Part shown: positions 45,421 through 64,000 of the stretch, one piece after another
Numbering within the stretch: position 1 is the first letter of the stretch
Layout: every line of letters begins with the position of its first letter
Source: Intestinibaculum porci
GTDB lineage: Bacteria; Bacillota_I; Bacilli_A; Erysipelotrichales; Coprobacillaceae
NCBI RefSeq assembly: GCF_003925875.1
Contig: NZ_AP019309.1
Span: 1,240,001-1,304,000 of the forward strand
Direction: 5' to 3'
DNA length: 64,000 bases
The notes under the pieces: generated by a model
What the model saw: only the letters and a program-made list of their open reading frames with translations
Database searches by the model: none
What the model was told of the DNA's origin: nothing
Program-made: the position numbers and the translations under genes

Positions 45421-45465
45421 GTGTTTTATGATATGATAGAGCGGATGAACAAGGAGATGAGGTAC

Positions 45466-46125
45466 ATGAATAAGACATTTTCCGTCACTGTTGATTTTGA
45501 TCAGCTGGTTGAGGATCACGATCGTAATGGGAATATTGGCTATCTTTATTTAAGGGAATGTTACAAAAGATTAGAAGTGACAGCATTTCTAAAGAAGTAT
45601 CAATTGAATGCAGAGTTATTTGCGTTTTTTGTCTATACCGATGTTATTGACGACTTACAAAACCTTCAGGAGATTTATCATTATCGCCGGCATTATCTTC
45701 ATGGACCGCAGTTCACGACTGATGATCTTGGGGAACTTGAATATGGTTTCACAGAACATCGGAAAGAGTATCTGATGTATTTACAAAAACGAATGATCGT
45801 ACTTTATCCAAAATCAAAAGACAATATCATCAAAGTATTTAAAGAATATCGTCGTGCCTCGGATTTACTACCCTTACTGGAAATTACGAAACGCTGTGTC
45901 ATCACAGTCTTATACGAAGATATAAATAAAGGTCGTTACTACTTTAATAATGCACAGTTGAGAACGACACTACGTGATATGTCGGTGATCAATATCAATG
46001 ATCAATATTATCAGGCTGGTTATGAAAACTCATATGTTTTAAAAGCATTAGAGGATACTTATCATTTAGGTTTGAATAAACGCTATTATACGATTGAGGA
46101 AATGCATGCTAAACTTAAAAGGTAA
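45466..46125 (+). CDS. IS1634-like transposase derivative lacking the catalytic core (copy 1)
   Basis: 219 aa from ATG 45466 (GGAG upstream). It is homologous to the protein at 46574-47425 in two blocks: GNIGYLYLRECYKRLEV with the following helices, and the C-terminal AQLRTTLRDMSVININ...VLKALEDTYHLGLNKRYY. Both blocks resemble the regions flanking the DDE domain in IS1634-family transposases. No DDE catalytic residues or RNase H-like core lie between. It also lacks the N-terminal KVTYNKKxKDP segment of copy 2. The ORF is intact, so a decayed or repurposed fragment. Not mobile by itself. Confidence 0.55.
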   Translation: MNKTFSVTVDFDQLVEDHDRNGNIGYLYLRECYKRLEVTAFLKKYQLNAELFAFFVYTDVIDDLQNLQEIYHYRRHYLHGPQFTTDDLGELEYGFTEHRKEYLMYLQKRMIVLYPKSKDNIIKVFKEYRRASDLLPLLEITKRCVITVLYEDINKGRYYFNNAQLRTTLRDMSVININDQYYQAGYENSYVLKALEDTYHLGLNKRYYTIEEMHAKLKR

Positions 46126-46540: not shown

Positions 46541-46573
46541 ATTATGAGAAGATATTAATGATTGGAGAGAAAT

Positions 46574-47425
46574 ATGAAGGTCACTTACAATAAAAAAGCA
46601 AAAGATCCCACTTATTATATTCAGGAAAGCTATCGTAATAAAGATGGTAAGTCTACAACCAGAACGGTAAAAATATTAGGGAAACATTCAGCGTTACTTA
46701 AGATGACGGATGATCCTTTAGCTTATGCACAAGAAATAGCGAAAAAGATGACGGAAGAAAAGAAAGAAACGATCACTTATACGATTGATCCAAATCAAAA
46801 GGTAGAATGGAGTGAGTATTCAGGTATAAGAAGGATTGGTTCTCTTTATTTACGGATCATTTTTGATCGTTTACAGCTTGATCAGTTCTTAGTATCGATT
46901 GGTGATCATCATGTACAAAAGAGCATAAATGTTCTTGAACTATTGGTTTACAATATGGTGTTTTATGATGATCCTTATGATCATTTCAAAGATAACTTTG
47001 GAAGTGTGCGCATTGATGATCAGGATGTGTTGATGCTTCAGAATATGTTAGATCCACATTATGGGGAGTTTATTAATTATGTAAAGAAACAGGCTTCATT
47101 ATTAGCTGGGAAGCATCCTATAAAGCGTATCTTTGATCATTTCTCTTTGACGTTTTCTATGTCAGACATATATCGATTGATCGCTCAGGTGATCGTAAGA
47201 CTTTTAAAGTATGATTTAGAAGATCATGGGTATTCGTTTAAAGAATCTGATCTGATCAAGACCCTTGATCAGTTACAGGTATATCATCGCACGAAGCAGA
47301 TTTATCAAGCGATGTATCAGGGAAATCATGTTTTAAGAGCATTAGAAGAGACGTATCACTTAGGTTTAGATTATGAATATTATTTAGAAAGTGACTTGAT
47401 GGAGAAAATGAAAAGACCAGAATAA
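46574..47425 (+). CDS. IS1634-like transposase derivative lacking the catalytic core (copy 2)
   Basis: 283 aa from ATG 46574 (GGAGAG at 46564-46569). The N-terminus MKVTYNKKAKDPTYYIQESY and KILGKHSALLKMTDDPLAYA is the standard start of IS1634-type transposases. RIGSLYLRIIFDRLQLDQFL follows. The C-terminus (DLIKTLDQLQVYHRTKQIY, LRALEETYHLGLDYEYY) matches their tail. The roughly 250-residue DDE core expected between them is missing: the whole protein is about half the usual length. The frame is open and has a ribosome binding site. No terminal inverted repeats were identified. Confidence 0.6.
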   Translation: MKVTYNKKAKDPTYYIQESYRNKDGKSTTRTVKILGKHSALLKMTDDPLAYAQEIAKKMTEEKKETITYTIDPNQKVEWSEYSGIRRIGSLYLRIIFDRLQLDQFLVSIGDHHVQKSINVLELLVYNMVFYDDPYDHFKDNFGSVRIDDQDVLMLQNMLDPHYGEFINYVKKQASLLAGKHPIKRIFDHFSLTFSMSDIYRLIAQVIVRLLKYDLEDHGYSFKESDLIKTLDQLQVYHRTKQIYQAMYQGNHVLRALEETYHLGLDYEYYLESDLMEKMKRPE

Positions 47426-47441
47426 AAAAATCTGGTCTTTT
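47411..47441. terminator. Bidirectional terminator between transposase derivative and Nudix gene
   Basis: Perfect 11-bp arms AAAAGACCAGA (47411-47421) and TCTGGTCTTTT (47431-47441). It sits between two convergent genes and covers both stop codons. Confidence 0.85.
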
Positions 47442-47973
47442 AGAATGCACGTTTTGTAAAGTTGGTATTGAAGTCTTCTTTTGATAAATGCGGGATCTTC
47501 TTTAATCCTTCTAATAAGAAATGTTCTGCCAAAGAGTGTGGTTTGATCATTTCTTTGGCCTGATCCAATGGGAACCACATCGCTTCATCGACTTCATTGG
47601 TTAAATGATAATCCATCGATGAGGCAATGACGATGTAGTTATGTAAGAGGGTATTGGTCTTTTTATAATAGGCATCATCATTGTAATAGAAACCAGTGAT
47701 ATCAAGATCAACTTCTTCTTTGATTTCTCTTTGTAGGGTGATGATATCTTCTTCACCTTTCATCACATAACCAGCAACTAGGATATTGGCTTTCGACTGA
47801 TATTGTTCAATGAGTAAAATATGATCCATGGCTGGATTTAAGATAATGCTGGAAATAGCACTGTTAAAGGTGGGATAAACAAACTTCTGACAGGTTTCAC
47901 AATAAGGTGTTTCACCATCTATACCATCAATTTTAGTAATGAGTTTAGTACCACAGGTTGGACAATAATTCAT
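47440..47973 (-). CDS. Nudix hydrolase with N-terminal zinc ribbon
   Basis: 177 aa on the minus strand; AAAGGAG precedes the ATG. A CxxC...CxxC zinc ribbon (YCPTCG, YCETCQ) at residues 3-30 and a Nudix fold with box GYVMKGEEDIITLQREIKEE at about 67-86 continuing VDL. The layout resembles NADH pyrophosphatase NudC or other NDP-X hydrolases. The box glycine in the last part (EExGU) reads as Asp, but the catalytic REIKEE acids remain. It hydrolyses a nucleoside diphosphate derivative; which one is unknown. Confidence 0.82.
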   Translation of the reverse strand: MNYCPTCGTKLITKIDGIDGETPYCETCQKFVYPTFNSAISSIILNPAMDHILLIEQYQSKANILVAGYVMKGEEDIITLQREIKEEVDLDITGFYYNDDAYYKKTNTLLHNYIVIASSMDYHLTNEVDEAMWFPLDQAKEMIKPHSLAEHFLLEGLKKIPHLSKEDFNTNFTKRAF

Positions 47974-48532: not shown

Positions 48533-51500
48533 ATGGCGAAAATGATAGATCAGAAGCTCCCAACAAATAAAGGTGAACAAATAGTATGGGATTTTCTGAA
48601 AAATTTATTATCTGATGACATTATTGTTTATCATAATAGGGAAGTCAAGGGGAGAGAATTTGATTTTTGTTTATTATTGCCTGATCAAGGAATATTAATC
48701 CTTGAAGTGAAAGGGTGGGAAGCTAAAGGAATTCGAGTTAAAGACCCTGATCAAATAATAATACCAGGATATGGTACTGAAGGTTCTCCAAAGAAACAAG
48801 CGAATATGTACAAGTTTTCTATGATTGAAAAAATAAAGAATTCATTTGGAAAATCACCGCTTGTTTTATCAATGGTTGTCTATCCATTTATAGATTATGA
48901 AGGATTTTATGATGCTGGATTAAACGTTGTTTCAGAAGTTGAATATACATTATTGAAGGAAGATTTATTGGAGAAGCAAAGATTAATAAATAAGATCAAC
49001 GCCTTATTTACATTAAATCACCATATCAAATATGCACCATTTAATGATAATTTGTTATTTAACGTTAGAAGTTTATTTGAAACAAATATAACAAGGGATA
49101 TTAGTAAGAGTGATCATTTTCATTATTCTGATTTAATGATTACTAAGAATGTATTATCTGAGACAAAATGCCAAAGCTTTATGGACGCTTATTGTCATGG
49201 TGAGAAAAAAATTGTTTTTACAAATAATATAGAAACTTTTGACCAGTTGATTAATTCGTTTGATCATGTTTTAAGAGATCTCAATATTGCTAGAAAAGGT
49301 TTAAATCTAGATTTAGGTTATATAGATTTGAATAAGGAAAATAAAGGTACTATAAGACATTTTTCAGCATTTAATTTTGAATTAATGCTCGTGGATGATC
49401 AGTTAGAGGAAGATGAAAAACACTTTTATGATGGAAATGTTGGCGATCATCTATCAATGTTAAAATCTCTCTCCAAAAGCGGAAATTTTAACATTGAACA
49501 ATATTTACTTGAACATGCTGATGATTCTAAAAACATATTAGTTAGAGCTGGAGCTGGTACTGGAAAAACATATTCAATGGTTTCAAGAATTGCTTTCCTA
49601 TGTAATAAACCAAATTTTCCAATTACAAATTTTTCAGATGAGATTGCCATGGTAACATTTACTAATAAAGCTGCTGATCAGATGAAAACTAGAATCAAAC
49701 AAATGTTCACTAATTATTTTATACTCACAGGAGATGTAAAATATCTACAATTTATTGATGATGTCGATCGGTCTAAAATATCAACAATTCACAAGTTTGC
49801 ACTTAATATATTGAGAGAAGCATCATATTATACAAAACTAGGTTCAGATTTCAGGATCAGCGATAATCAGTATTTACGCAATCAGCTTTATGATAAATAT
49901 CTTAATGAATTTTTTTTAGAAAAAAGCAGTGAAATTGATAACTTTTCTTTAAAAGTCAAAGTGACATCTTATAATTTAAAGAAAAGCTTAATGCAATTAG
50001 CTGATCGTTTATTGACAAAAAATATAGATTTAGAACAGATTCAAATAGATGAACTGGGAGAGCCAAAAATAAAAACAATTCCATTTATTAACGAATTGTT
50101 TATGAAAGTTATTGTGAAAGCAGAAACGGAATATTCTATTGAGAATAAAGAAAGAAATGCGTTAAGTCTTAATGAATGTATTATTTCATTGATGAGGATA
50201 ATGCCAAATAATATTTCAGCAATTAGAAAATTAAGCATCCGCTACTTATTTATTGATGAATTTCAAGATACTGATGATGTTCAAATAGCTTTTTTTCAAC
50301 AATTTCAGCAGTATATTAAAACAGACTTAAAGTTTTTTGTCGTTGGTGATTTAAAGCAGAGTATTTACCGCTTTAGAGGAGCAAAACTAAGCGCTTTCGA
50401 TCAATTGAAACAAAATAAAACAGACTGGTTAGATTTTTATTTAACAATAAATTATCGTAGTGATCGAAGACTTCTGGAAGATTTTGATCAAGTATTTAAA
50501 AGAATGGGAAGAGAAGAATTATTGCCTTATGAAGATGGTGATCGTATTAAAGGAATAAAGACATTTAATAGTTTGGAACATCATCTTCTTAAAAAATATA
50601 GTATTTTTACGAGTGATTATAATTCTTTTTATGATGAACTATTTAAAGTGATTTCTGAAGAGAGGAAAAATATAGTTGAGAATAAAGATCAGATCAGTAT
50701 AAATAATGCAACAATTGCAATACTAGTAAGAACAAATAGGGAAGTTGAAGCAATTATTAAAGAAGGAAGACTAAGGGGCATCTCTGTGGAAACGGACGAT
50801 TCCGGGCATTTATTTCAATTTGATGCAACCATTGATTTATTTAGGTTAGTCAATGCACTTGTACGTGGAAATGATCCAGTTGCATTAACTAATTTTATTG
50901 AATCAAATTATACGAATTTACATCTTAATTACGAAAGACTTCATAATCTTGATTACGGGGATACAAGGAAAGAATTATTGCATATTGTTAATCAGTATTT
51001 GCTTACTTCTTTAGGCCAGACGTGGAATGATATTTTAGCAAAGATTAATACACAGCCGGTTTTAAATGTGTTAAGGGAACTTTTCAATTCTTTAAAACCT
51101 TGGAAAAATTATAGCAACTCAATTACACGGCAGAAAAATTATATTGCAAATTATGAATATTTAATCGAGAGAATGATTCACTACTGTCGCGTTGATGCCA
51201 TTACTTTAATCCGTATTCAGCAATACTTGCAAGTTAATATTACAACTAGACAGTCAGAAAAAGAACGATCTATTAAAACTGAAGATGATCAAAATAAACT
51301 TATTTGTATGACTGTGCATAAAGCAAAGGGGCTAGAGTTTACTACTGTTATTTTGCCATTTACTGATCGATCATTGCGTAATAAACGGCAAATGAAAATT
51401 GAAGCAAATTATAGTCATCATAAGTTAGCTTATTATTTGTCGATCAAGCGAAATAAAGAAGAACCACTTATTGAGTGCAATAACTATTTTCAAGAGGATA

Positions 51501-51640
51501 TCGAATTTCAGGAACAGGCGGAAGAAGAATCCAGAATTCTTTATGTGGCATTAACACGAGCAATTTATAAATGTATCTGGATTGACAGCGGAGAGAATAA
51601 AAAAATGACTTGGGCAACATTATTGGAGGGAGAAGTATGA
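48533..51640 (+). CDS. NERD nuclease fused to UvrD/AddA-like superfamily 1 helicase
   Basis: 1035 aa from ATG 48533 (AAGGAG upstream; the TTG at 48509 precedes the ribosome binding site). Residues about 10-60 form a NERD nuclease: GREFDFCLL near 40-48 and LILEVKGW near 54-61 give the D...ExK triad. The helicase has Walker A RAGAGTGKTYSM near 335-346, VTFTNKAADQM, ISTIHKFALNI, FIDEFQDTDDVQ near 573, VGDLKQSIYRFRGA, NYRSDRRLLEDF, TVHKAKGLEFTTV near 927 and YVALTRAIYK near 1003. The C-terminal RecB-type nuclease of AddA is absent. Its stop overlaps the next start (ATGA), so it is tightly coupled to an AddB-like partner. Predicted to translocate on and cut DNA. Confidence 0.85.
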   Translation: MAKMIDQKLPTNKGEQIVWDFLKNLLSDDIIVYHNREVKGREFDFCLLLPDQGILILEVKGWEAKGIRVKDPDQIIIPGYGTEGSPKKQANMYKFSMIEKIKNSFGKSPLVLSMVVYPFIDYEGFYDAGLNVVSEVEYTLLKEDLLEKQRLINKINALFTLNHHIKYAPFNDNLLFNVRSLFETNITRDISKSDHFHYSDLMITKNVLSETKCQSFMDAYCHGEKKIVFTNNIETFDQLINSFDHVLRDLNIARKGLNLDLGYIDLNKENKGTIRHFSAFNFELMLVDDQLEEDEKHFYDGNVGDHLSMLKSLSKSGNFNIEQYLLEHADDSKNILVRAGAGTGKTYSMVSRIAFLCNKPNFPITNFSDEIAMVTFTNKAADQMKTRIKQMFTNYFILTGDVKYLQFIDDVDRSKISTIHKFALNILREASYYTKLGSDFRISDNQYLRNQLYDKYLNEFFLEKSSEIDNFSLKVKVTSYNLKKSLMQLADRLLTKNIDLEQIQIDELGEPKIKTIPFINELFMKVIVKAETEYSIENKERNALSLNECIISLMRIMPNNISAIRKLSIRYLFIDEFQDTDDVQIAFFQQFQQYIKTDLKFFVVGDLKQSIYRFRGAKLSAFDQLKQNKTDWLDFYLTINYRSDRRLLEDFDQVFKRMGREELLPYEDGDRIKGIKTFNSLEHHLLKKYSIFTSDYNSFYDELFKVISEERKNIVENKDQISINNATIAILVRTNREVEAIIKEGRLRGISVETDDSGHLFQFDATIDLFRLVNALVRGNDPVALTNFIESNYTNLHLNYERLHNLDYGDTRKELLHIVNQYLLTSLGQTWNDILAKINTQPVLNVLRELFNSLKPWKNYSNSITRQKNYIANYEYLIERMIHYCRVDAITLIRIQQYLQVNITTRQSEKERSIKTEDDQNKLICMTVHKAKGLEFTTVILPFTDRSLRNKRQMKIEANYSHHKLAYYLSIKRNKEEPLIECNNYFQEDIEFQEQAEEESRILYVALTRAIYKCIWIDSGENKKMTWATLLEGEV

Positions 51641-54264
51641 GTCTAAAAATTTATACATTTAGCAATCCTAATTATTTAGATCAAGAAGATTTTTGGAATG
51701 AAATAAAAGATGCTCCTTATTTTTGTGTTACTCAAACATTAGTTAATGGTTTGTCTGCAAGATTTTCTAAAGATTTTCCGAAAGGGAGAATAGGAACTTC
51801 ACAAAATCTATTAAATAATTTGTATGAAGATTGGTTGAGTACTTCAAAAATTATTAAGCAGCATACTGATTTAGATAGTATCATTACACAGGAATTATCA
51901 GTTGATTTAGATGCATTTGCTTTTAACCGTGATGATCTATTTAAGAGTATTAGAGTCATGTTTGAATTAGGAATGGAACCTACAGGTATTAATAAAGATC
52001 TTTTAAGTGAAGAACAAAGAATTTTATTTGATATCTTTTGCTGTATTTGTAATTCAAAGAGAATTAATGATTTTAGAATAGATGAGGTGCTTAATGATGA
52101 AGAAATTACTGAGGCGATCGAAAGTGCACTATTGTTGAATGTACCTGATAGAGATTTATCTGATGCAAAGATCGTTAGTTCATCTCTAGATTATAGTAAA
52201 ATTGTCATTCACGGCATTCATCAGTTTAGTCCATTAGCATTACGAATGATTGAAACGCTCTCAGAAATATGCGATGTTTATTTAATTTTTCCTTATCAAG
52301 ATCATTTAAAAAATGTTTATCAAACATGGCTTGATATTTATTCGATTTTCGATTCGCCAATACATTTCTCGGAAAATCCTAGAAAGCCATCGCTAATAAA
52401 TGATAATCACATACTGGGTGATTCTATAGGGAAAATCCTTAATGGACAAATGAGACAGGCTACACTTAATACAAATGTAGAAATTATCGAGTTTAATAAT
52501 ACAACTGAGTTTGCAAATTACGTTGCTGAAAAATTTGAAAAGGCCATAAAAGTAAAAGAATATGCAAAAAAGAAAAGTCAAAGTAGGGGAGAAGCTTTTA
52601 ATAGGAGCACGCTTTCCTATATGGATGAACAGTTTTATTCCGCTGATTTTTCAGTGAATGATGTATTAAAAGTTTATTATCCTGATCAATTTGGAGAGCG
52701 TCATTTTCTTAATTATCCATTAGGGCATTTCTTTTTAGCAATTGCCAATATGTGGGATGAAGAAAATCAGTGTTTACGTATAGATGATTTAAACGATATT
52801 AAAGAATGTTTGCAGTCTCATTTCTTTAGTGAAGATTATTACGGAGAGCTTTGTGAAATATTTACGAAATCTGAAGTTTTATTTTCTTCTCCTATGCCGA
52901 CGACGATTACAAAGATGATTGAAAGAATTGATAAGTTAGAAAAGAGAATAAACAAGAAAAGAGAAGACTGGATTAAAAAAATTGAGTACTGTGATTTATC
53001 TGCAAAAGAAATAGCTAAATTAAGACAGTCTCTCTTAGAGTTGGAAAAAATATCAGAGGAATTCTTTCAGGAATTTGCATCTAAACCACAAAACTTTAAA
53101 TTATTCTATAAAAATGTGCAGGGATATTTAGTTTCGAAGCTTAATAATGAAGATCAGATTGATGACAATTTTAGAGATATTATTGAGCGTGTGGTTCAAC
53201 GCCTGGAAGAAGTAAAAGATATCACAGCATCTGCATCTTTGCGTTGTCTCATTAATACAATGAATTTATATTTAGAACAGAATCCAAAGAAAAACGTAAG
53301 CGCGAACTGGATTGTTCGTAATTTTGAACAAATTGATGGGGATATTTTACTAAATAGTCCGAAAACACTACATTTTGCTTGTTTATCAGATGAAGATATT
53401 AATGCCACGCAAAAGAGAGAATTTCCATGGCCATTAGATGAAGATTTCTTTGAGAGAGCACAAAAGCCAATCGATTGGAAATATCAATGTTATGTTAAGT
53501 CGTGTAAAGAGTATAAAAACTTTAGACGATATGCATTGATTTATGGTCTGCAATATTGTCGAGGAAAGGTAAAACTGAGCTACATAAAGAAGAATGGTGA
53601 TCATGATCGTATTTTATATTATCCATTGCGTTTAATGAAACTTACTGTTAAAAACTTTTATGATTATATTGTAGATGATGAATTAAAAGATGTTTCTAGT
53701 ATCAATTTTGATGAACAAATACAATCAAATTATTCACTTATTGATTATGATCGTTATCATCTCTGTCCTTTTAAATTTGTTCAAGAAACATTAGTAGAAG
53801 GAAATACAATTTATAAAGATGCATTTTTATTAAATAAATATGTAGAAATTGTTCTCAAAGGTAAAGTTATTAATGATGAGAACTATAGAATCTCATTTAA
53901 AAATAGAGATTTAGAAATGTTTAATAAGCAATTAGAAAAAGATTATAAAAGAATGCAAAGGTATTTACCTTTCTTAACTGAATATAATAAATTTGATATT
54001 TTATATGCTGTCATCAATAGTATGAATTATATGAAAAATTTCAACAATGAACTTGAACAAACCTTTTTACGTACAGCATTAAAAGATGAAAAGGGATCAA
54101 ATATATTAAAAAATCAATTTCCACAGTTAAATCAAGATCAAGTGAACGAAAAGTTAAATGATCAAATTTTAGCAGAAGTATTTTATAAACCGCATGTTGG
54201 TAAATGGTGCGAATTTTGTGCTAATAAATTAGTGTGTGTTAATTATTATAAAGATCAAAAATAA
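51637..54264 (+). CDS. AddB-like protein with iron-sulfur cysteines, no visible nuclease motif
   Basis: 875 aa from ATG 51637 (GGAGGGAG upstream), overlapping the helicase by four bases. The C-terminus has YDRYHLCPFKFV (Cys about 710) and CEFCANKLVC (Cys about 858, 861, 867). This spacing, one distant Cys and then CxxCx5C, is the 4Fe-4S signature of AddB-type RecB nucleases. Only about 150 residues separate the first Cys from the triplet, against roughly 320 in AddB, and I find no GxxxH or D...DxK catalytic motif. The N-terminal part has an AddB-like decayed helicase feel (KIVIHGIHQFSPLALRMIE, VYLIFPYQDH) with no Walker A. A coiled-coil stretch is near 425-480. Probably a structural partner. 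Confidence 0.65.
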   Translation: MSLKIYTFSNPNYLDQEDFWNEIKDAPYFCVTQTLVNGLSARFSKDFPKGRIGTSQNLLNNLYEDWLSTSKIIKQHTDLDSIITQELSVDLDAFAFNRDDLFKSIRVMFELGMEPTGINKDLLSEEQRILFDIFCCICNSKRINDFRIDEVLNDEEITEAIESALLLNVPDRDLSDAKIVSSSLDYSKIVIHGIHQFSPLALRMIETLSEICDVYLIFPYQDHLKNVYQTWLDIYSIFDSPIHFSENPRKPSLINDNHILGDSIGKILNGQMRQATLNTNVEIIEFNNTTEFANYVAEKFEKAIKVKEYAKKKSQSRGEAFNRSTLSYMDEQFYSADFSVNDVLKVYYPDQFGERHFLNYPLGHFFLAIANMWDEENQCLRIDDLNDIKECLQSHFFSEDYYGELCEIFTKSEVLFSSPMPTTITKMIERIDKLEKRINKKREDWIKKIEYCDLSAKEIAKLRQSLLELEKISEEFFQEFASKPQNFKLFYKNVQGYLVSKLNNEDQIDDNFRDIIERVVQRLEEVKDITASASLRCLINTMNLYLEQNPKKNVSANWIVRNFEQIDGDILLNSPKTLHFACLSDEDINATQKREFPWPLDEDFFERAQKPIDWKYQCYVKSCKEYKNFRRYALIYGLQYCRGKVKLSYIKKNGDHDRILYYPLRLMKLTVKNFYDYIVDDELKDVSSINFDEQIQSNYSLIDYDRYHLCPFKFVQETLVEGNTIYKDAFLLNKYVEIVLKGKVINDENYRISFKNRDLEMFNKQLEKDYKRMQRYLPFLTEYNKFDILYAVINSMNYMKNFNNELEQTFLRTALKDEKGSNILKNQFPQLNQDQVNEKLNDQILAEVFYKPHVGKWCEFCANKLVCVNYYKDQK

Positions 54265-54393
54265 ATTTAATAGGCAACTTGCTTTATTTGAAATGGAAAT
54301 GGTTTATTAAACTTAATAAATCAGATCGGAGGAAATATATTTCGTTACAATATCTATTAATATAAAAAATATAATATAAATAAGGAGAAAATT
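54265..54393 (+). promoter_or_regulatory. Internal control region between island genes 2 and 3
   Basis: 129 bases, the only real gap within the island. An 18-bp dyad TTTATTAA-AC-TTAATAAA (54303-54320), a ribosome-binding-like GGAGGAAAT with no start codon after it (54329-54337), and a -10 TATAAT (54370-54375) with a possible -35 TTACAA at 19-base spacing. It suggests a second transcription start for genes 3-6. Confidence 0.45.
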
Positions 54394-57300
54394 ATGAAGA
54401 GTAAAATGTATGTTAGGTGTCCAGCTGATTATGAAGATGAACTACATCCCCGCATTTTTGTTTGCGCTCAGATTTTAGCTGTAGATGATTTTGCGGAGAC
54501 TGTAACAGTCAAAATTCATGATCCAAGTGGATATTTAGAATATTTTGATGAATTACCTTCGGATATCCAAGTATATCCAAAATCTCAAGTAAATAGATGT
54601 ACTTTTTTTAATAATTCAGAGGTCTTTGTTGGCAAAAAAGCATATGATGTGATCTGTAAGAAAAAAGAAAAAGACGAAGAAGGATATTATTACTATTATT
54701 TGCAAAATAAATCAGATAAAAGTATTAGCTGTGTATGTGAAAAAGACATAATTGCTGGATTTAACAATGGTCGAGTTTCCCCAAGACGTCAGCTTTTAAA
54801 TTATGAATTTCAAAATCCAGTTTGGTATGTTGGACGTTACGCTGTTTCAAAAAATGTCAATATATTGCATAATGCGATGTACGGTTTTGATGAATTAGCA
54901 GGGTCAAAGATTTATTTATTACCGCATCAGGTAAATACAATTATGAGATGCTTACAGGATGAGAAATGTCGCTATATGTTGGCAGATGAAGTTGGTATGG
55001 GAAAAACAATTGAAGCCATATCAATTTTGAAAGTCTATATGAAAGATCGGAGTCGGCTGAAAATCTTAATTGTTGTTCCTAAGCAGCTGAAAGAGCAGTG
55101 GCATGCAGAACTATTACTTAAATTTAGTATTTCTATAGGGGTAAATAAAAATAATAATCGTGTTTCCTTAATATCTTATGATCAGTTAACGGAAGCAAGA
55201 ATTAATAGGCAATATGATTTTGTGGTAATGGATGAAATTCATCAAGAGATCGCTTCGCCAGGTCATTACAGTCTTGTTCATCAGTTAAGTCACAATACAA
55301 AAAATCTGTTATTGCTAAGTGCAACACCGGTTCAGCAAAAAAGAACAGAATATTTAAATTTATTACGCGTATTAGATCCAGAAAAATATGATCATGTTGG
55401 AAAGTCACAATTTGAAGACTTGGCTGTAAAACAAATGGAGATTGTAGAAAGAACGTCTCTATTACTCGACGACATTTTAGATTTGGAAGAAATTAAGGAA
55501 GAAGTTCTCGAAGAAGGAGGAGATCCACTTGAAAGCGATGAGTGCTTAGAGACATTTGATGACATATTAGATGAAATAAATGAATTCATTGGCATGTTTA
55601 ACGATGATCATTTGAATACTATTGTTGATCATATTGATAAAGAATATGATTTTGGAATTGCTCAAATGAAATTATTGGTTTCATATGTCGCGGATAATTA
55701 TCAAATCGAATCTCACGTTATTCGCAATCGCCGAAAGACGCTGCAAATCATTGCTGAAGAAGAAGGAGAGCCTTCAATTCTTCCTACAAGAAAATTGCAT
55801 GCATTACCTTATAATCTGGACTTGGATCATAATTATGAAGAGAAGGTCGCGTACAATGAATTGATTCAATGGGCAAATAATAGGGTGAAGACGAGTGACA
55901 GTATTTTCTTAGATGTTCTACCTGTTGTTGGAGCTTTTTTCAGTTCTGCGGCAGCCTATCAAGGAAGTGTATGGACATATAATGTAGAAATTCATCAGGA
56001 GCATCTTAATAAATGGATTGAATATGAACAAAAAACTGTAAATATGATAAAAGAAATTATCCAAGATCCAGATGAATATAAAGATTATTACGAGTCTAGA
56101 TTAGTTAAAATTATTAATTATCTATATGAAGAATGTTCAGATAGTAAAGTTGTCCTTTTTACAAACTATAAAGAAACGTTAAATTTATATAAGAAAGCAT
56201 TACTCAATGTATTTGATCAAAGCGAAATTACTTATTTCTATAAAGGTATTGATCCTGAAATATTAGAAGTCAATGTTTATCATTTTCAAACCGATTCACA
56301 CTGTAACATCATGCTTTGTGATCAAACAGGGGGAGAGGGAAGAAATTTCCAGTGTGCTGATTTTGTGATTCATATCGATTTACCTTGGGATGCTAATCAA
56401 ATTGAACAAAGAATAGGTCGATTAGACCGTTTAGAAAGAGATCCTGAAAGATCAGTAGTTACTTCAGTTGTTCCCTATGCACTTGATTCATTTGAAGAAT
56501 CATTATTTCAGTTTTGGAATAATGGGTTAGAAATTTTTACGCACTCATTAAGTGGTATGGAAATTATTATGAATGATATTAACACGAAATTGGTTCATTC
56601 TATTGAGGAGGATTTTGAAACTGGTCTTGCATCTCAAATAGACAGCATTATTAAGGATGTTAAGAGAATGACGAACCAAGTAAATAAAGAGCAAAATTTT
56701 GACAGTGCATCTACAGCATACGCTCCTTTATTTAACAATATTCGAGAACAAATTGAAAACTATAATGAAAATGACTCAAAAATGTTTAGAGAAGCTATGA
56801 CAAGCTGGTCTTCTTTAGCTGGTTTTCATGCACAAGAATGTGGCGAAGATATTATAAAATACACGGACCATGCATTTTCTGTTAGGTCTGCTTTTAAAGC
56901 AATGCTGATTCCTCCTAATTGGAGTGATTATTTTTTAAATGAGCATAATGCGTTTTTGCGTAAGGTTCAACAAAATGCAAGCTCAATCCGTACAAATGAG
57001 AGAGCAATTAAAGGTACATTTAATAGAAAGATCGCTATTGAAAATGATTATATTCATTTCTTTGCACCAGGTGATGCGATCTATGACTGCATTGTTTCTA
57101 ATGCCATTAATAGTTGTAAAGGAACTTGTTCTGCCATAGAAATAAAAGGAAAATATAATTGGGCTGGTTTTAGATTTATATATAGAATTCTTCCAAATTA
57201 TGAATATCTGCTTGAAAATCATGTTTCTTTACATGAATTTGATTTGTTTAAATCATATGTTAATATGAGTCCAATTGACCATGTGGTATCCTTAATTAAT

Positions 57301-57723
57301 AAGGATCAAATAGATGATATCGATATACGTATAGAATTGAATTCTATACTGACTCTAAAAAATATTAAATCACATTATACCATTAATTATGGAAGAAGAA
57401 GTTCCGGTGATAAAAGCAAAACTTTATCTAATATAGATTGGTTTATCCATACTTTTGGTAAAAACTGGGCTAATGTGGTAAAAACTCTTACAAAGCAATC
57501 AAAAGAGTTTACTTATGAAAAGTACATGAAACAAGCTAATTTGAGTGAAGTAAAAAAAGAGATGGAACGGATTCGAAGAGGAAAAATAGCTAAGAATAAT
57601 TTTTATGATTTAGATGATCAAGATTCGATGGATTTGGAATCGGTTTTTGATATTATTCTAAAAGCTTTAGAAACGCCTCAAATTGAATTGGAATCGGCTT
57701 TATTTGTAAGAATGGAGCAATAA
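54394..57723 (+). CDS. SNF2-family DNA translocase/helicase, DpdE-like
   Basis: 1109 aa; AAGGAG precedes ATG 54394. Two RecA-like lobes are clear: Walker A ADEVGMGKTIEA near 194-205, IVVPKQLKEQWHAE, DEIH near 279, LLLSATPVQQ near 307-316, then VVLFTNYKE, CDQTGGEGRNFQCADF near 641 and QIEQRIGRLDRLERD near 668. A long C-terminal region (about 750-1109) has no recognisable domain. SNF2 proteins move along double-stranded DNA without unwinding it. The next gene starts directly after its stop. With the following genes it matches the dpdE-F-G-H order, as I recall it. DISARM DrmD is another possible relative. Confidence 0.75.
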   Translation: MKSKMYVRCPADYEDELHPRIFVCAQILAVDDFAETVTVKIHDPSGYLEYFDELPSDIQVYPKSQVNRCTFFNNSEVFVGKKAYDVICKKKEKDEEGYYYYYLQNKSDKSISCVCEKDIIAGFNNGRVSPRRQLLNYEFQNPVWYVGRYAVSKNVNILHNAMYGFDELAGSKIYLLPHQVNTIMRCLQDEKCRYMLADEVGMGKTIEAISILKVYMKDRSRLKILIVVPKQLKEQWHAELLLKFSISIGVNKNNNRVSLISYDQLTEARINRQYDFVVMDEIHQEIASPGHYSLVHQLSHNTKNLLLLSATPVQQKRTEYLNLLRVLDPEKYDHVGKSQFEDLAVKQMEIVERTSLLLDDILDLEEIKEEVLEEGGDPLESDECLETFDDILDEINEFIGMFNDDHLNTIVDHIDKEYDFGIAQMKLLVSYVADNYQIESHVIRNRRKTLQIIAEEEGEPSILPTRKLHALPYNLDLDHNYEEKVAYNELIQWANNRVKTSDSIFLDVLPVVGAFFSSAAAYQGSVWTYNVEIHQEHLNKWIEYEQKTVNMIKEIIQDPDEYKDYYESRLVKIINYLYEECSDSKVVLFTNYKETLNLYKKALLNVFDQSEITYFYKGIDPEILEVNVYHFQTDSHCNIMLCDQTGGEGRNFQCADFVIHIDLPWDANQIEQRIGRLDRLERDPERSVVTSVVPYALDSFEESLFQFWNNGLEIFTHSLSGMEIIMNDINTKLVHSIEEDFETGLASQIDSIIKDVKRMTNQVNKEQNFDSASTAYAPLFNNIREQIENYNENDSKMFREAMTSWSSLAGFHAQECGEDIIKYTDHAFSVRSAFKAMLIPPNWSDYFLNEHNAFLRKVQQNASSIRTNERAIKGTFNRKIAIENDYIHFFAPGDAIYDCIVSNAINSCKGTCSAIEIKGKYNWAGFRFIYRILPNYEYLLENHVSLHEFDLFKSYVNMSPIDHVVSLINKDQIDDIDIRIELNSILTLKNIKSHYTINYGRRSSGDKSKTLSNIDWFIHTFGKNWANVVKTLTKQSKEFTYEKYMKQANLSEVKKEMERIRRGKIAKNNFYDLDDQDSMDLESVFDIILKALETPQIELESALFVRMEQ

Positions 57724-60231
57724 GTGAGGATGAGAAATAGAGAGTTAGAAGAACAGGTATCAAAATATTTTAAAGGGGAAATAACCTCTCAAGATATTTT
57801 GTCTTATATTCAAAATTTAAATTTTAAAGATAGCCATCAGCATTTTCTTGCATCGACTGTGAAAAGACTGATATTAATTGCTGAAAAAAGGAAGCAATCC
57901 AATTTATATGATCATGATTTTCTTATTGCATTAAGGGATTATTTACTCGTTTTTAATAATCCCAGACTAGATGGAGATATTATTACAGGATTCGATATTG
58001 AAGACTATGATATTATTGTTCAAGAAGGGCAATGCAGATGTTATTTAGATCAAATTCCAAATGGAATTACGCCTAAATTTATTAAAGATACGTATGCTTT
58101 GACAAGTAAAAAAAGTGAACCTTCTCATAAAGCAAGCTTGATCACAGATAATAAAATTTATGATTTGACTGGGTATAAGTATTTTAAGTCAATACGTCAG
58201 AAAATAGCTGTATATGGTGCATTGAAAACACCAAATGGTTATACAACACTCATTTCACTGCCTACGGGTGGAGGAAAGAGTTTAATAACACAAAGTATTG
58301 CTTATCAAGGTCGTGGCTTAACGATTGTTATAGTGCCTACAGTTTCCTTAGCAATTGATCAGGAGAAAAGTGCAAAAAAGGTTATAAAGAGCGAAAATGC
58401 TGATGAGGAAATTTTTTATTATGCAAGTGGCTTTTCCAAAGATAAACAAGATTTAATTATTTCTTCAATTAAAAACCATACAGCAAAACTTTTGTTTATT
58501 TCTCCTGAAGCATTGCAGAATAATGAAATATTTAAGAATATTGTAAAGACAGCAAATGATCTCAAATACTTAAAAAATATTGTAATTGATGAAGCACATA
58601 TTGTGGTAGATTGGGGAAGAAATTTTCGACCTGAATTTCAATCATTAGAGTCCTGGAGAAACGCTTTGATGTTTGAAAATGAAGAGATTCGAACATTTCT
58701 TCTTTCAGCCACATTTGTAGAGCGTGATACTAAAATTTTGAAAAATCTATTCTCAAATCGAGATAAATGGATTGAAATAAGATGTGATGCATTAAGGCAA
58801 GAACCAAGATTTAATGTTATCAAAAAAAATACTGAAGGTCAAAAGAAAGATTGCATTGTTGAGCTTGTAAAGAAATTACCGCATCCAATGATTATTTATA
58901 CTGATCAGCCTGCTCATGCTGAGCAATATAAAAAGCTGCTAGAGGCACACCAAATAAATAATATCAAAACATTTACTGGTAATACAAAAAATGATGAGAG
59001 AAAGAGACTCATTAATGAGTGGAAAAATGACGAGTTCGAAATCATGATCGCTACTTCAGCGTTTGGTGTTGGAGTTGATAAAAGTGATATTAGAACTGTT
59101 ATTCATACATATGTTCCACAAAACCCTAATGCTTATTATCAGGAGTTAGGACGAGGAGGAAGAGATGGCCTTCCTTGTCTTAGTGTTATGTGTATTACCC
59201 CTAGCAGAGATTTGGCGGATGCTAAAAATAAAATGTTGAGAAGTATTTTAAGCGAAGAAAAAATTTTCCAAAGATGGGATAGTATGTTTAATTCCCCAAA
59301 ATCAAAAAGAATAGGAAATAAAGTTTATATAGATACGTCTATTGTTCCAAATTATGTGGAATCAGATCATAATGATGATTTTTCAAATGAAGGACATGTG
59401 AGATGGAATGTTTACGTTTTATTTTTGTTGAGGCGATGTAATTTAATTTCAATCAACAATGTTATTAAGGATGGTAAAAAATATATATTTACCATAGAAA
59501 TCAACGATGATGTTTTATATGGTCGCAATCAGGTCGAAATAATTGATAAAATGCATCACGCATATAACGAAGAAGCGCAATACTATAATGATTCATTCGC
59601 TGAAATACAGGATCATATTGAAAATGCAGGAAAAGAATGCTGGTCAGAAATGTTCTATAGTACTTACGATTTTGTTGATGAGTATTGTGCAGGCTGTGAT
59701 GAGCATAAAGAAATTATTGATGGAACAAGTAATGAAATTTTAAAGAAGCCTGTCACAAAACCATGTATGTTATTTGGTGCTAATAGATTAAAATGGTTAT
59801 CTGAAAATAGAGAAGCGATAATAATAACATCTGAAATGAATTATGCGCAAATTATTAAAAAGTTCGCAGACCATATTTTTGTAACTGTTGTAATACCTAA
59901 TGATTATTGTAATCAAGAGTTAGAAAGTATGATTAAAGATCAAACGAGAAAAAATATCTTTATCTTACAATTTGATACATTTTATAAACTAATTAAAAAT
60001 GGCTCCTATTTTTTTGTTAGTGGTTTAGTAATTGTTGTATATAATTCGCAAAAAGAAGATCAGATGTATAATTTTTCTTTAGTAAAGAATAATTTATATA
60101 ATATGGAAAATATTAGAATTATACATTTAACAAATGAAGATATGAATGTTAAGAATGCAAAAAAAATGAGTGATTATGTTGATGGTGCGTTGATTGATGA
60201 GAATTCTTTAGGAGATGATATTTATGTTTAA
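57724..60231 (+). CDS. RecQ-like DEAD-box helicase, DpdF-like
   Basis: 835 aa. I kept GTG 57724, because GGAG at 57714-57717 is six bases ahead; ATG 57730 is the alternative. Superfamily 2 motifs: SLPTGGGKSLITQ near 178-190, FISPEALQ, VIDEAHIVVDWGRNFRPEF near 288-306 (RecQ-type motif II/Ia), FLLSATF, TSAFGVGVDKSDIRTVIH near 443 and YYQELGRGGRDG near 472-483. It lacks a clear RecQ zinc/HRDC tail; a CAGCDEHK motif with a later KPC may bind metal near 655-680. The stop of the SNF2 gene immediately precedes it. Predicted 3'-5' DNA helicase acting with the SNF2 motor. Confidence 0.75.
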   Translation: MRMRNRELEEQVSKYFKGEITSQDILSYIQNLNFKDSHQHFLASTVKRLILIAEKRKQSNLYDHDFLIALRDYLLVFNNPRLDGDIITGFDIEDYDIIVQEGQCRCYLDQIPNGITPKFIKDTYALTSKKSEPSHKASLITDNKIYDLTGYKYFKSIRQKIAVYGALKTPNGYTTLISLPTGGGKSLITQSIAYQGRGLTIVIVPTVSLAIDQEKSAKKVIKSENADEEIFYYASGFSKDKQDLIISSIKNHTAKLLFISPEALQNNEIFKNIVKTANDLKYLKNIVIDEAHIVVDWGRNFRPEFQSLESWRNALMFENEEIRTFLLSATFVERDTKILKNLFSNRDKWIEIRCDALRQEPRFNVIKKNTEGQKKDCIVELVKKLPHPMIIYTDQPAHAEQYKKLLEAHQINNIKTFTGNTKNDERKRLINEWKNDEFEIMIATSAFGVGVDKSDIRTVIHTYVPQNPNAYYQELGRGGRDGLPCLSVMCITPSRDLADAKNKMLRSILSEEKIFQRWDSMFNSPKSKRIGNKVYIDTSIVPNYVESDHNDDFSNEGHVRWNVYVLFLLRRCNLISINNVIKDGKKYIFTIEINDDVLYGRNQVEIIDKMHHAYNEEAQYYNDSFAEIQDHIENAGKECWSEMFYSTYDFVDEYCAGCDEHKEIIDGTSNEILKKPVTKPCMLFGANRLKWLSENREAIIITSEMNYAQIIKKFADHIFVTVVIPNDYCNQELESMIKDQTRKNIFILQFDTFYKLIKNGSYFFVSGLVIVVYNSQKEDQMYNFSLVKNNLYNMENIRIIHLTNEDMNVKNAKKMSDYVDGALIDENSLGDDIYV

Positions 60232-61015
60232 AGGAAAAATGGAGACCCCAGCGACACCAGAGCGTGTCTATTATCTGTGTAAACTATTAGAAAATGGTCC
60301 CAAAAACTCAGTTGATTTAAAAAGTAAAATGTTTCCGAAAATTTTAGATCCAAACGGTGATAGTGGTTATTTTGGGAATATTCGTAAAGCAGCTGAAGAA
60401 TTGGAACTCGTGGTTATTGAAGATAATATGATCAAATTACTGGCTCCAACAAATATATTAGTGAGTCAAGAGAGTTTTAGAGAATATATCAATAACTTCA
60501 TATATAATTTAAGTGATGATGAATTTTATGATGTAACAAAAGCTTATTTTACCTTAGGAACGGAAATTATTACAACTGTTAGCAATAATGTTAGTGAGTA
60601 TTCTAAAGTTATTGATAATGCTACAAATCACCGTTATAAGTTAGATAACACAACTCAAAATGCGTGGCGATTTTGGGCTACATATTTAGGCTTTGGTGAT
60701 ATCTTTAAAAACAATATGTTTATACCAAATTGTAAAGTCTTTTTACAGGATTTAATAAATTATTCTGGATTGGAGAAAAATAAGTCATATAGTGCTCAGG
60801 AATTTATTTCAGGATTAGGAAGATCTTTTGATATTTTAGGCAATGAAGGAAATGTAATGAATTATGGTACGACAAATGGTTTACGTTCACTTCATGAATT
60901 AAAGGTGATTAAAATGGAGCATATTCTCGATAATGATAAAGCTATTGTTTTGTATAAAAATAATGATCCTGATCTTAGTGAGAGTATCACAAATATTACT
61001 ATATTGGAGGCATAA
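60224..61015 (+). CDS. Uncharacterised protein, DpdG-like
   Basis: 263 aa from ATG 60224 (GGAG at 60211-60214, spacing 9), overlapping the helicase stop by 8 bases. An ATG at 60215 would be only one base after that GGAG. The N-terminal 70 residues (ATPERVYYLCKLLENGPK, VDLKSKMFPKI, YFGNIRKAAEELELVVIED) look like a winged-helix DNA-binding domain. The rest is helical, with WRFWATYLGFGDIF near 145-158. I recognise no catalytic motif. Position and size fit DpdG of the Dpd restriction set. The function is unknown in the literature I recall. Confidence 0.6.
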   Translation: MFKGKMETPATPERVYYLCKLLENGPKNSVDLKSKMFPKILDPNGDSGYFGNIRKAAEELELVVIEDNMIKLLAPTNILVSQESFREYINNFIYNLSDDEFYDVTKAYFTLGTEIITTVSNNVSEYSKVIDNATNHRYKLDNTTQNAWRFWATYLGFGDIFKNNMFIPNCKVFLQDLINYSGLEKNKSYSAQEFISGLGRSFDILGNEGNVMNYGTTNGLRSLHELKVIKMEHILDNDKAIVLYKNNDPDLSESITNITILEA

Positions 61016-61018
61016 TTG

Positions 61019-64000
61019 ATGAATTCAAAAATTGCAAAAGCAAGGCTAAATGCCATTGTTAAACCAGATGCGAACAATACGGCTATTGAAGATTTCTTTG
61101 CAACACATGTGCCATTAAAGCATCTACAGGTTGTTGATCAATTTTCTTTGGCACCTCCTGTTGGAAATTTTAGAGACGAAATTGAGATTTTTGAGGATTA
61201 TGTGAAAAATCCTGAAAACAAGCATCAAATGATTGTCGTATATGGGCAATCAGGAACTGGAAAATCTCATTTGATCAGATGGTTTAAAGAAATGTTAGTT
61301 AATGAACAGCTTGATCATGAGGTTATTCTTTACATTTCACGAAGTGACAATACGTTGAAGGGTACAATTAAGCAACTTTTGCAAAAAGAAGAGCTTAGAA
61401 ATATTGAAGGAAATGAAGAACTTTACAAAAAGCTTAGAAGTGCATCTGAATTTGTTGATGAAAAGAAATTAAAGGATCAAATATATTATCAGTTTGTAGT
61501 TGAAGTTCAGAATGATCATTCCATCAATTCTGTGAAACAAAGAAAGATTGCTGCATTTTTAAAAGATGATCGTATAAAAGATTATTTACTTCGGCCAAAA
61601 GGACCATTAGAAAGAATCTATTCCAAAATTGACGAAAGAGAGACAATTGTTGATCTTGATGTTAAGGCAGAATTTTATCCAGAGGATTTTTATATTGATT
61701 CAGAGCTTTATCAAAAAATTGATCAATATGGAGACCTTAGTGCAAAACGCTTAACCAAAAAATTGTATTCGGATGTCAGCCGTGAAAAAGAAGCTCGTGC
61801 ATTGTCAAAATATCTTAATGGTTTTGTTGAAGAAGTTATTCAGCACACAACCAATATCGAGCCTGGAGATATTGAACAAATTTTTACGAATATTAGACAT
61901 CAGTTATTCACTCAAAATAAAAATTTAACGATATTTATTGAAGATATTACTTCTTTTACTGGCGTTGATAAATCATTGCTTAATGCTCTACTAAGAGAAA
62001 ATGAAGGTGAAGATGAAAAAGAAGAAATATGTCGTATTTCGTCTATTATTGGAAGTACGACGTCGTTTATTCAGGATAAGTTTTTAGATAATCATAAGGA
62101 CCGTGTTTCTACTTATATTTATATTCCTGATAATCAGTTTGATCAAAAACAATTGTTTGAATTTGTTGGACGATATGTGAACGCGATGTCATTAACAAAA
62201 GAGAGATTAAAAGAATGGGTATCAGCAGGGGCACATCCTGAAGATTATCCAGTTCATGAGTGTATAGAAGGAAAAAACTGGGATTATATTATTTCTGATG
62301 ATCATAAGTTGCCACTTTATCCTTTTAGTAAAAATGCAATCGTTAATTTATACGATACACAGCTTAGAGAAGGTGCAAAGACACCTAGATATATTATAAG
62401 AGACATTATTGAGCCTGTAGCTCGAGAAGCTTTAGAAACGCCAGCTATGTTTCCTTCTGAACGTTTCATTTATAGAAAACAGAATGTTGATGTTAATACA
62501 ATCCTTGACAGAAGAATAGGTGATGATATTTCGAAGCTTGATCGCTTAAAACGATTCATTTATATTTGGGGTAATGGAAAAGCAGATAAGTATGTACAAA
62601 ATGATATTCAATACATTTCAGGAATTCCTGAAGAAGAATATCAATTATTTGATTTGCCAGTGTTGGATTTAAAAGAATCAAAAGCCGTATTAGAAGAAGA
62701 AATACCTGATGTGAGCGATGACTTTGTTGAAGCGCATAAAGTTGAGAAAAAAGTAATATCTGAAAAATCTGCGAATATTTTTGAGATCACTTTAGAACAA
62801 GAAAAGAATTTAAAAGAAGTCGAAGAATTATTAGGTGAGTGGCTGCTGGGAAGAATTCTCCTCCCTAAGGGGAATGTTGGTGCAGGAAAGTATATTAATA
62901 ATGCGAGATCTGACATTAATTCTTATTTATTAGAAACAATTGATTGGCAATTGTACAATGTTTCAATGGATAATGTAAGAAAAATAAAAGACTCAAGTAA
63001 TGGCTTAATAAAGTTTGCTGGAGAAGATAAAGGGAAACCTGCTCTTTATACCATTCCTATTTCGAATAATGCAGTTCGTTTAATTATGGCTTTTATAAGA
63101 TGGAATTACCTTGGGAAAAAAGAAAATTTTAATTACTATAACGGAATTGAAGATGCTTATACAATTACAAATTGGAAACGTACTGTAGAAAAAGATATTG
63201 TCCATGCAGCTGAATTTATTGATGATCAAGAAGTTCACTATATTGATGCTGCTATTTCAATGAAAATTTTAAACCAAGCATTATTTAATTCAGTTAACAT
63301 AAAAAATATCCAAAATTATAATTTTGATATGATGTATAAAGCACTTTCGATGTCATCTCATGTTCAACATGCTAAAAAATGGAATGAAGTTGAAAACATG
63401 CTTATCAATGATAAGTTAGATGCTGAGAGTATTGATGCAACAGTCAAGCGCTACTTTAACTTAGAACAAGGGAATTCATCGCGTGTATTTGTTATAAAAT
63501 ATCTTGAAGCCACTAAAGCTTTAAAGAATATGAAAAAGAAAAAACTCTTAGTTGATCCATATTCGATTCCTAATGATATTATTAAAAAAAGAAAAGAAAT
63601 TTATGATCAATATACTAAATACTTTGACAGACTTGAGGCAATTTTAGATGATGAAATGAACAATCTTTTGCCTATAAAAAATGATTGTGAAAATTATTTG
63701 CAGGAATTAGATATTGAGGATGATGAGGATTTTGATGATTTTACAAATGACGTTTCTGATTTCTATGATTATGCAAATAGTTTACGCTTTAACATTAGGT
63801 TTTCAGCAACTGAAATAAGTGATGATATTAAAAAAATCTTAGATGCAGTAGAAAGAGTGAACGCTGCTGAAAAAGAAGATGCAGTGATTAATAAAATTTT
63901 GTTATTAAATAAACCTACAATAGAATATTTAAGTGAGTTACAAGAATATTTTCAAAATATAGGAAGAGATGTGCAAATTGCTGAAGGAGAATTAAACAGA
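61019..64000 (+). CDS. Large P-loop ATPase, DpdH-like (partial at window end)
   Basis: Open for 994 codons from ATG 61019 to the window edge without a stop. GGAGG precedes the start, three bases after the previous stop. Walker A is VVYGQSGTGKSHLIRW near 73-88 and Walker B LTIFIEDITSFTG near 301-313, followed by an ISSIIGSTTSFIQD sensor-like block. Downstream is a long region with a helical segment near 580-610 and acidic stretches, without known domains. This is the STAND/AAA-like layout seen in DpdH and in BREX-type ATPases. It may sense DNA or drive the other island proteins. The C-terminus and any following genes are out of view. Confidence 0.65.
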   Translation, partial: MNSKIAKARLNAIVKPDANNTAIEDFFATHVPLKHLQVVDQFSLAPPVGNFRDEIEIFEDYVKNPENKHQMIVVYGQSGTGKSHLIRWFKEMLVNEQLDHEVILYISRSDNTLKGTIKQLLQKEELRNIEGNEELYKKLRSASEFVDEKKLKDQIYYQFVVEVQNDHSINSVKQRKIAAFLKDDRIKDYLLRPKGPLERIYSKIDERETIVDLDVKAEFYPEDFYIDSELYQKIDQYGDLSAKRLTKKLYSDVSREKEARALSKYLNGFVEEVIQHTTNIEPGDIEQIFTNIRHQLFTQNKNLTIFIEDITSFTGVDKSLLNALLRENEGEDEKEEICRISSIIGSTTSFIQDKFLDNHKDRVSTYIYIPDNQFDQKQLFEFVGRYVNAMSLTKERLKEWVSAGAHPEDYPVHECIEGKNWDYIISDDHKLPLYPFSKNAIVNLYDTQLREGAKTPRYIIRDIIEPVAREALETPAMFPSERFIYRKQNVDVNTILDRRIGDDISKLDRLKRFIYIWGNGKADKYVQNDIQYISGIPEEEYQLFDLPVLDLKESKAVLEEEIPDVSDDFVEAHKVEKKVISEKSANIFEITLEQEKNLKEVEELLGEWLLGRILLPKGNVGAGKYINNARSDINSYLLETIDWQLYNVSMDNVRKIKDSSNGLIKFAGEDKGKPALYTIPISNNAVRLIMAFIRWNYLGKKENFNYYNGIEDAYTITNWKRTVEKDIVHAAEFIDDQEVHYIDAAISMKILNQALFNSVNIKNIQNYNFDMMYKALSMSSHVQHAKKWNEVENMLINDKLDAESIDATVKRYFNLEQGNSSRVFVIKYLEATKALKNMKKKKLLVDPYSIPNDIIKKRKEIYDQYTKYFDRLEAILDDEMNNLLPIKNDCENYLQELDIEDDEDFDDFTNDVSDFYDYANSLRFNIRFSATEISDDIKKILDAVERVNAAEKEDAVINKILLLNKPTIEYLSELQEYFQNIGRDVQIAEGELNR

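Follow-up and report, generated by a model that had tools for sequence, protein, structure and literature searches.

Gene content of the island

The window, by which we mean the whole stretch of 64,000 nucleotides of Intestinibaculum porci DNA analysed here, closes with six intact and tightly packed open reading frames (ORFs), all on the + strand, running from position 48533 to beyond position 64000. Their starts were refined by conservation and, for genes 1 and 5, also read in the sequence. Gene 1 (48533..51640, +, with AGGAG upstream of its start) combines an N-terminal NERD domain with a UvrD/RecB/AddA-like SF1 helicase and overlaps by 4 bases gene 2 (51637..54264, +), which by predicted fold encodes an AddB/RecC-like subunit. 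A gap of 129 bases, the one spacing exception mentioned in the initial annotation, separates gene 2 from gene 3 (54394..57723, +), encoding DpdE, a SNF2/RapA-like translocase. No base lies between gene 3 and gene 4 (57724..60231, +), encoding the RecQ-like SF2 helicase DpdF; gene 5 (60224..61015, +), encoding DpdG, a probable tandem winged-helix DNA-binding protein, overlaps gene 4 by 8 bases and directly abuts gene 6 (61016..64000, +). The latter encodes the AAA/P-loop ATPase DpdH and runs off the window to end at window-equivalent position 64132 (G000:C1:1304132), for a full ORF of 1038 aa.

As previously proposed, the island is AT-rich: its G+C content is about 28-33%, and most of the remaining window has about 36-45%. 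The description of its flank as transposase remnants could not be confirmed, the two ORFs concerned (45421-46125 and 46562-47425) having no Pfam match; a NUDIX hydrolase gene (47440-47973, -) separates them from the island. A promoter scan returned nothing enriched relative to shuffles.

The window ends before the operon does: beyond gene 6, the contig (G000:C1) carries ten more genes on the same strand before a threonyl-tRNA synthetase gene, the latter recognised by eye. The ORF following DpdH (1304113-1304772) occupies the position of DpdI and shows a profile match to canonical DpdI (E 2.1e-24). Then come DptF (1305084-1306829; 203 bits) and DptG (1306833-1308242; 185 bits), both above cut-off, and DptH (1308202-1313658; 515 bits, under its cut-off of 620.65), followed by DndB (from 1313769; 408 bits), DndC (from 1314858; 619 bits), DndD (from 1316395; 460 bits) and DndE (from 1318332; 121 bits), all four above the NCBIfam cut-offs, and by DndA (1318715-1319863; 462 bits against a cut-off of 480). 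The Dnd modification genes of this genome are complete, with dndC, dndD and dndE as well as dndA and dndB intact. Thus, the proposal of a free-standing six-gene system did not hold: the six genes share one larger operon with DndA-E and, in this genome, also with DptFGH, and their candidate function can accordingly be narrowed to restriction within a phosphorothioate (PT)-based restriction-modification system.

The tenth gene, directly after DndA, encodes an HNH nuclease (HNH_4; G000:C1 about 1319864-1321024; L003:44-1024) that probably serves the system as an accessory nuclease. Members of this family stand after DndA in many of these operons and, in one locus, directly after DpdI (L034:13816-14964).

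The AddAB-like pair and the DpdE-F-G-H-I cassette

Gene 1 matches Pfam NERD (7.6e-11), UvrD-helicase (2e-44) and UvrD_C (6.6e-18); no RecB-type C-terminal nuclease domain was found in it by Pfam, NERD being present instead. In a residue numbering that starts at TTG 48509, NERD residues D52 and E66-V-K68 are kept, together with all SF1 motifs, in at least 90% of 30 full-length homologues, and a full-length homologue was present in 41 of the 44 PT-linked genomes. Judging by this motif conservation, NERD is most likely the catalytically intact nuclease of the putative restriction arm. Gene 1 was also considered as Gabija GajB or as RecB proper, and both assignments were rejected, the only signal being the one common to SF1 helicases, far under the RecB/AddA cut-offs.

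Gene 2 has no sequence-family match above threshold and lacks a Walker A motif; weak Pfam RecC/ADDB_N matches appear in a few members of its family. Homology with AddB could not be established from sequence alone, either by a PDB profile search or by hhalign (P 0.095), and its AddB identity was settled by the predicted fold: in the AF2 model (pLDDT 77.8), the top PDB fold retrieved by Foldseek is AddB (4cej_B, E 6.7e-13, TMq 0.47), with 3u4q_B, UvrD and RecC among further folds. Four putative Fe-S cysteines are invariant in 29 homologues, with a cysteine interval of about 150 residues vs about 275-300 in housekeeping AddB, while the GxxDRxD/DYK nuclease motifs, present in most housekeeping AddBs, occur in none of these 29 members. 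Gene 2, as modelled, is thus a protein of AddB/RecC fold that has retained the Fe-S cysteines and lost the nuclease motifs. The genome has its own separate housekeeping AddB, and querying plasmids with gene 2 gave no match.

Consistently with the initial annotation, which had called genes 1 and 2 an AddAB-like pair, they share with AddAB, RecBCD and AdnAB the UvrD/RecB-type motor (gene 1, supported by the UvrD-helicase HMM), the AddB/RecC fold (gene 2) and the Fe-S cysteines. Unlike in those complexes, the nuclease is an N-terminal NERD domain carried on the motor, the AddB nuclease motifs are gone and the genes are located in a defence operon; the two RecB-type C-terminal nuclease domains with Fe-S expected of AddAB are not found in genes 1 and 2. 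From their motifs and from the model, the pair reads as an AddAB-type motor that has been rebuilt, with cleavage performed by NERD.

The following genes correspond to the restriction half of Dpd islands. Gene 3 matches the DpdE profile NF041062 (E 5.6e-114, 382 bits, cut-off 500) and PADLOC DpdE (5.5e-81), gene 4 matches DpdF NF041063 (E 3.6e-144, 482 bits, cut-off 550) and PADLOC DpdF (3.2e-114), and gene 6 matches DpdH NF041065 (E 5.1e-79, 267 bits, cut-off 450) and PADLOC DpdH (2.3e-46). The match of gene 5 to DpdG NF041064 is weak (E 3.6e-4), and its profile-profile comparison with canonical DpdG gave an E value of 1.5e-40 over 264 columns. Since all four fall under the NCBIfam equivalog cut-offs, we regard them as homologues, not equivalogs; with DpdI, the five homologues stand in the canonical Dpd order. 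The HMM searches bore out the domain calls made earlier for gene 3 (SNF2/Helicase_C), gene 4 (DEAD/Helicase_C, RecQ-like) and gene 6 (a large P-loop ATPase, here AAA). Calling gene 5 wHTH-like is plausible but short of proof: its AF2 model (pLDDT 89.6) has no significant PDB fold match, and many of the low-scoring ones are tandem winged-helix proteins.

Recurrence and linkage to Dnd

A DpdH alignment run against 84,980 species genomes retrieved 79 loci, which were annotated with seeds; the 70 of at least 18 kb were scored. Loci were selected by two DpdH peptide patterns, so that divergent members were missed, such as G825, found only from the dndC side. The AddAB-like pair was accompanied by DndC in 34 of these 70 loci and had no DndC in reach in 5; two loci had DndC without the pair, 25 had DpdJ and no DndC, and four had none of the three. 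The pair was associated with DndC (Fisher p = 3.4e-12 over the 70 loci, uncorrected for relatedness), and DpdJ and DndC never occurred together (0/70; DpdJ in 0/36 DndC-bearing loci, DndC near 0/25 DpdJ loci). A genome search of the five remaining pair loci found DndC on the same contig in all five: in three it immediately precedes gene 1, and in the other two, from DptFGH-bearing Bacillaceae, the distance is about 30 kb. DndC is therefore on the same contig in 39/39 pair loci, and adjacent in 37 of them.

This linkage is kept across three gene orders, with Dnd downstream, upstream or convergent, in carriers belonging to Lachnospiraceae and other Clostridia, Erysipelotrichaceae, Selenomonadaceae, Bacillaceae, Paenibacillaceae and Actinomycetota. 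Recurrence elsewhere, on which the initial annotation had made its proposal depend, was thus found: the set is present together in about 40 genomes and its order is kept in dozens, which argues that the arrangement is not due to chance. In a DpdF tree of 78 sequences, a single change separates the PT-linked from the DpdA/J-linked ones, indicating that the Dnd association is one old origin kept through rearrangement and not many independent gains. The 39 cases are therefore not independent acquisitions, and the Fisher p value has to be weighed accordingly. Gene 1 is absent from two PT-linked genomes (those behind L036 and L049) that have DpdEFGHI and Dnd, which may have lost the AddAB-like pair or be able to do without it; carriers of DpdEFGHI and Dnd without gene 1 include one alphaproteobacterial MAG.

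Sampling from the dndC side, in 392 genomes of one order, gave 13 genomes with DndC over the cut-off. The module was the commonest neighbour of dndC in this unbiased sample of one order (6/13); three genomes had DptFGH, one of them having both, two had Pbe-like genes and, in one more, the neighbourhood was cut by the contig end. The two Pbe-like dnd_restrict_1 neighbourhoods contained no AddAB-like or Dpd genes. In both (L161:8104-16249 and L167:9500-16273), a large protein (weakly RpoA/sigma-like), a PLD and SF2 helicase protein (dnd_restrict_1) and a DndD-like ABC ATPase precede DndB, which is a Pbe-like effector set. Among sampled genomes of the host's own class and phylum, full-length DpdH was found in its own genome only, suggesting that the system is rare there.

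In three Lachnospiraceae (L194, L195 and L196), a divergent Dnd lineage (DndC scoring about 265 bits to the window seed) lies directly upstream of gene 1, so that the module has partners from two Dnd lineages.

Proposed function and competing explanations

We consider it likely, from gene content and conserved motifs, that the six genes and DpdI are the restriction arm of a PT-based restriction-modification defence system of hybrid composition. Since the neighbouring Dnd writer is complete, the simplest working model would have this arm restrict DNA that lacks PT. DndABCDE would put PT marks on host DNA, and the restriction arm would consist of the DpdEFGHI cassette and a dedicated AddAB-like pair, DpdE and DpdF providing two further DNA motors, DpdH a large ATPase and DpdG a probable DNA-binding protein. 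DpdG, DpdH and DpdI, with the DpdE and DpdF motors, may survey DNA and allow loading of the NERD-SF1/AddB-like complex, which would then unwind and degrade PT-lacking DNA, the PT on host DNA blocking or stalling the machine. What the loci themselves show is their gene content, intact motifs, a linkage to Dnd that recurs in several orders, and the absence of DpdA and DpdJ; complex formation, PT sensing, the PT-blocked step and anti-phage activity are inferred. Several points count against this explanation: no PT-reading domain was identified among the restriction proteins, Dnd modification operates elsewhere without the module, gene 1 is missing from the two PT-linked genomes mentioned above, and the 39 pair loci go back to a single origin.

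Known Dnd restriction-modification (DndABCDE with DndFGH/DptFGH) likewise joins a modification operon to an ATP-driven restriction arm. It differs in that DptFGH is missing in 40/44 of the clade (DptH is present in only 4/44 PT-linked genomes), with the AddAB-like pair and DpdEFGHI in its place; the window's genome has both, and DptFGH, placed within the operon, may be its second PT restriction arm. The IscS-DndBCDE-DndI, SspABCD-SspE/FGH and PbeABCD systems also combine PT modification with an alternative effector (PMC11662687, PMC8092258, PMC6459918), but their effector proteins are unrelated. Partners of PT modification described so far are DndFGH, DndI, SspE/SspFGH, Pbe and BREX-4 (PMC11662687, PMC8092258, PMC6459918, PMC12839542). 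In the literature searched, which left supplements and most subscription journals outside its scope, there was no description of Dnd joined to DpdEFGHI or to an AddAB-like pair, and the closest comparative study (PMC10853773) does not mention Dpd, UvrD, RecB, AddB or RecQ in its main text. As far as this search reaches, DpdEFGHI and an AddAB-like pair with Dnd are apparently undescribed, with priority uncertain. The earlier claim of novelty thus stands for the full set and fails for genes 3-6 taken individually, which are DpdE, F, G and H homologues; genes 1 and 2 match no named system, so that the six do not all map onto one.

dndBCD without dndFGH is common, dndFGH being nearby in 340 of 568 dndBCD genomes (PMC11662687), and in many bacteria PT genes occur without the known restriction genes, which has been read as a hint that PT has a role other than defence (PMC11931770). 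In Firmicutes, many gut Lachnospiraceae among them, the module is a candidate partner of part of these 'orphan' Dnd operons, and it may supply what many gene sets with no known nuclease were missing. Moreover, the Dpd restriction half can be decoupled from 7-deazaguanine, and annotation based on HMMs is consequently likely to mislabel these loci, as incomplete Dpd or as Dnd without a nuclease.

More tentatively, DpdEFGHI could be a portable, mark-agnostic core used with different marks and killers, the mark in its PT version acting as a Chi-like stop. The core would serve 7-deazaguanine with DpdJ/K, phosphorothioate with the NERD-AddAB nuclease-helicase, and DISARM DrmA/B, and an end-resecting AddAB-type nuclease would stall at PT, so that host DNA is spared; we hold these two ideas jointly as a possibility.

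Alternatively, the module might be activated by PT, as reported for SspE, or be an infection-triggered abortive effector to which Dnd gives the activating mark. PT stimulates the NTPase of DndI and SspE and is required for activation of the SspE nuclease (PMC11662687), DpdH, as a large P-loop/AAA protein, could be the sensor, and HNH nucleases follow DndA in many loci. We find such activation unlikely, as the intact processive motors and NERD nuclease are no less suited to degrading foreign DNA, and homologous dpd genes are presented in the literature as a restriction operon that belongs to a self/non-self system (PMC11888242). It is quite improbable that the AddAB-like pair and DpdEFGHI serve in repair or replication support, dealing with PT-containing DNA ends or breaks: although the housekeeping end-resection machine has the same AddB-like fold, the genome retains a separate AddB, many Dnd systems do without the module, and the DpdEFGHI core is also found in Dpd islands and beside DISARM DrmA/DrmB, both described as defence. 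Clustering of defence genes is frequent and the island is AT-rich, as if unlinked defence genes acting alone had been stacked in it, a notion made hardly credible by the same-contig DndC of every pair locus, in several orders, and by its absence near the DpdJ loci.

Finally, a degraded canonical Dpd (7-deazaguanine) island, which the DpdE-I homologues in canonical order might suggest, is extremely unlikely, since the genome has no DpdA match, a single TGT and no DpdJ match (single query, no positive control), and the same gene content is conserved across a whole clade. On the same absences, an intact canonical Dpd system was ruled out. DpdA exceeded the cut-off in 9/9 canonical Dpd controls vs 1/41 PT-linked genomes, and DndC was absent from 9/10 canonical Dpd genomes. 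The sole PT-linked DpdA match (G531:C9:1951-2526) is fragmentary: it spans about 190 residues, contains an internal stop and lies on a contig other than the operon's.

The restriction arm that we propose resembles Dpd islands in its DpdE, F, G, H and I homologues and their order, and differs from them in lacking DpdA, in that DpdJ and DpdK were not seen (DpdK in the loci only), in its Dnd-type modification and in the added AddAB-like pair. Hybrids of Dpd with YprA helicases (BRIGADE, PMC12458937) and with BREX (PMC12839542) are known. BRIGADE and other Dpd hybrids similarly recombine Dpd-like effectors with other modules, but BRIGADE retains YprA helicases and the synthesis of 7-deazaguanine and was detected in halophilic archaea only (PMC12458937), whereas the system described here has PT and no TGT-type DpdA. 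In two Selenomonadaceae loci (L044:13858-19748 and L063:13838-17428), DISARM DrmA follows DpdE-F-G-H-I, with no DpdJ/K or Dnd and, in L044, with DrmB too, an arrangement that is possibly a Dpd-DISARM hybrid.
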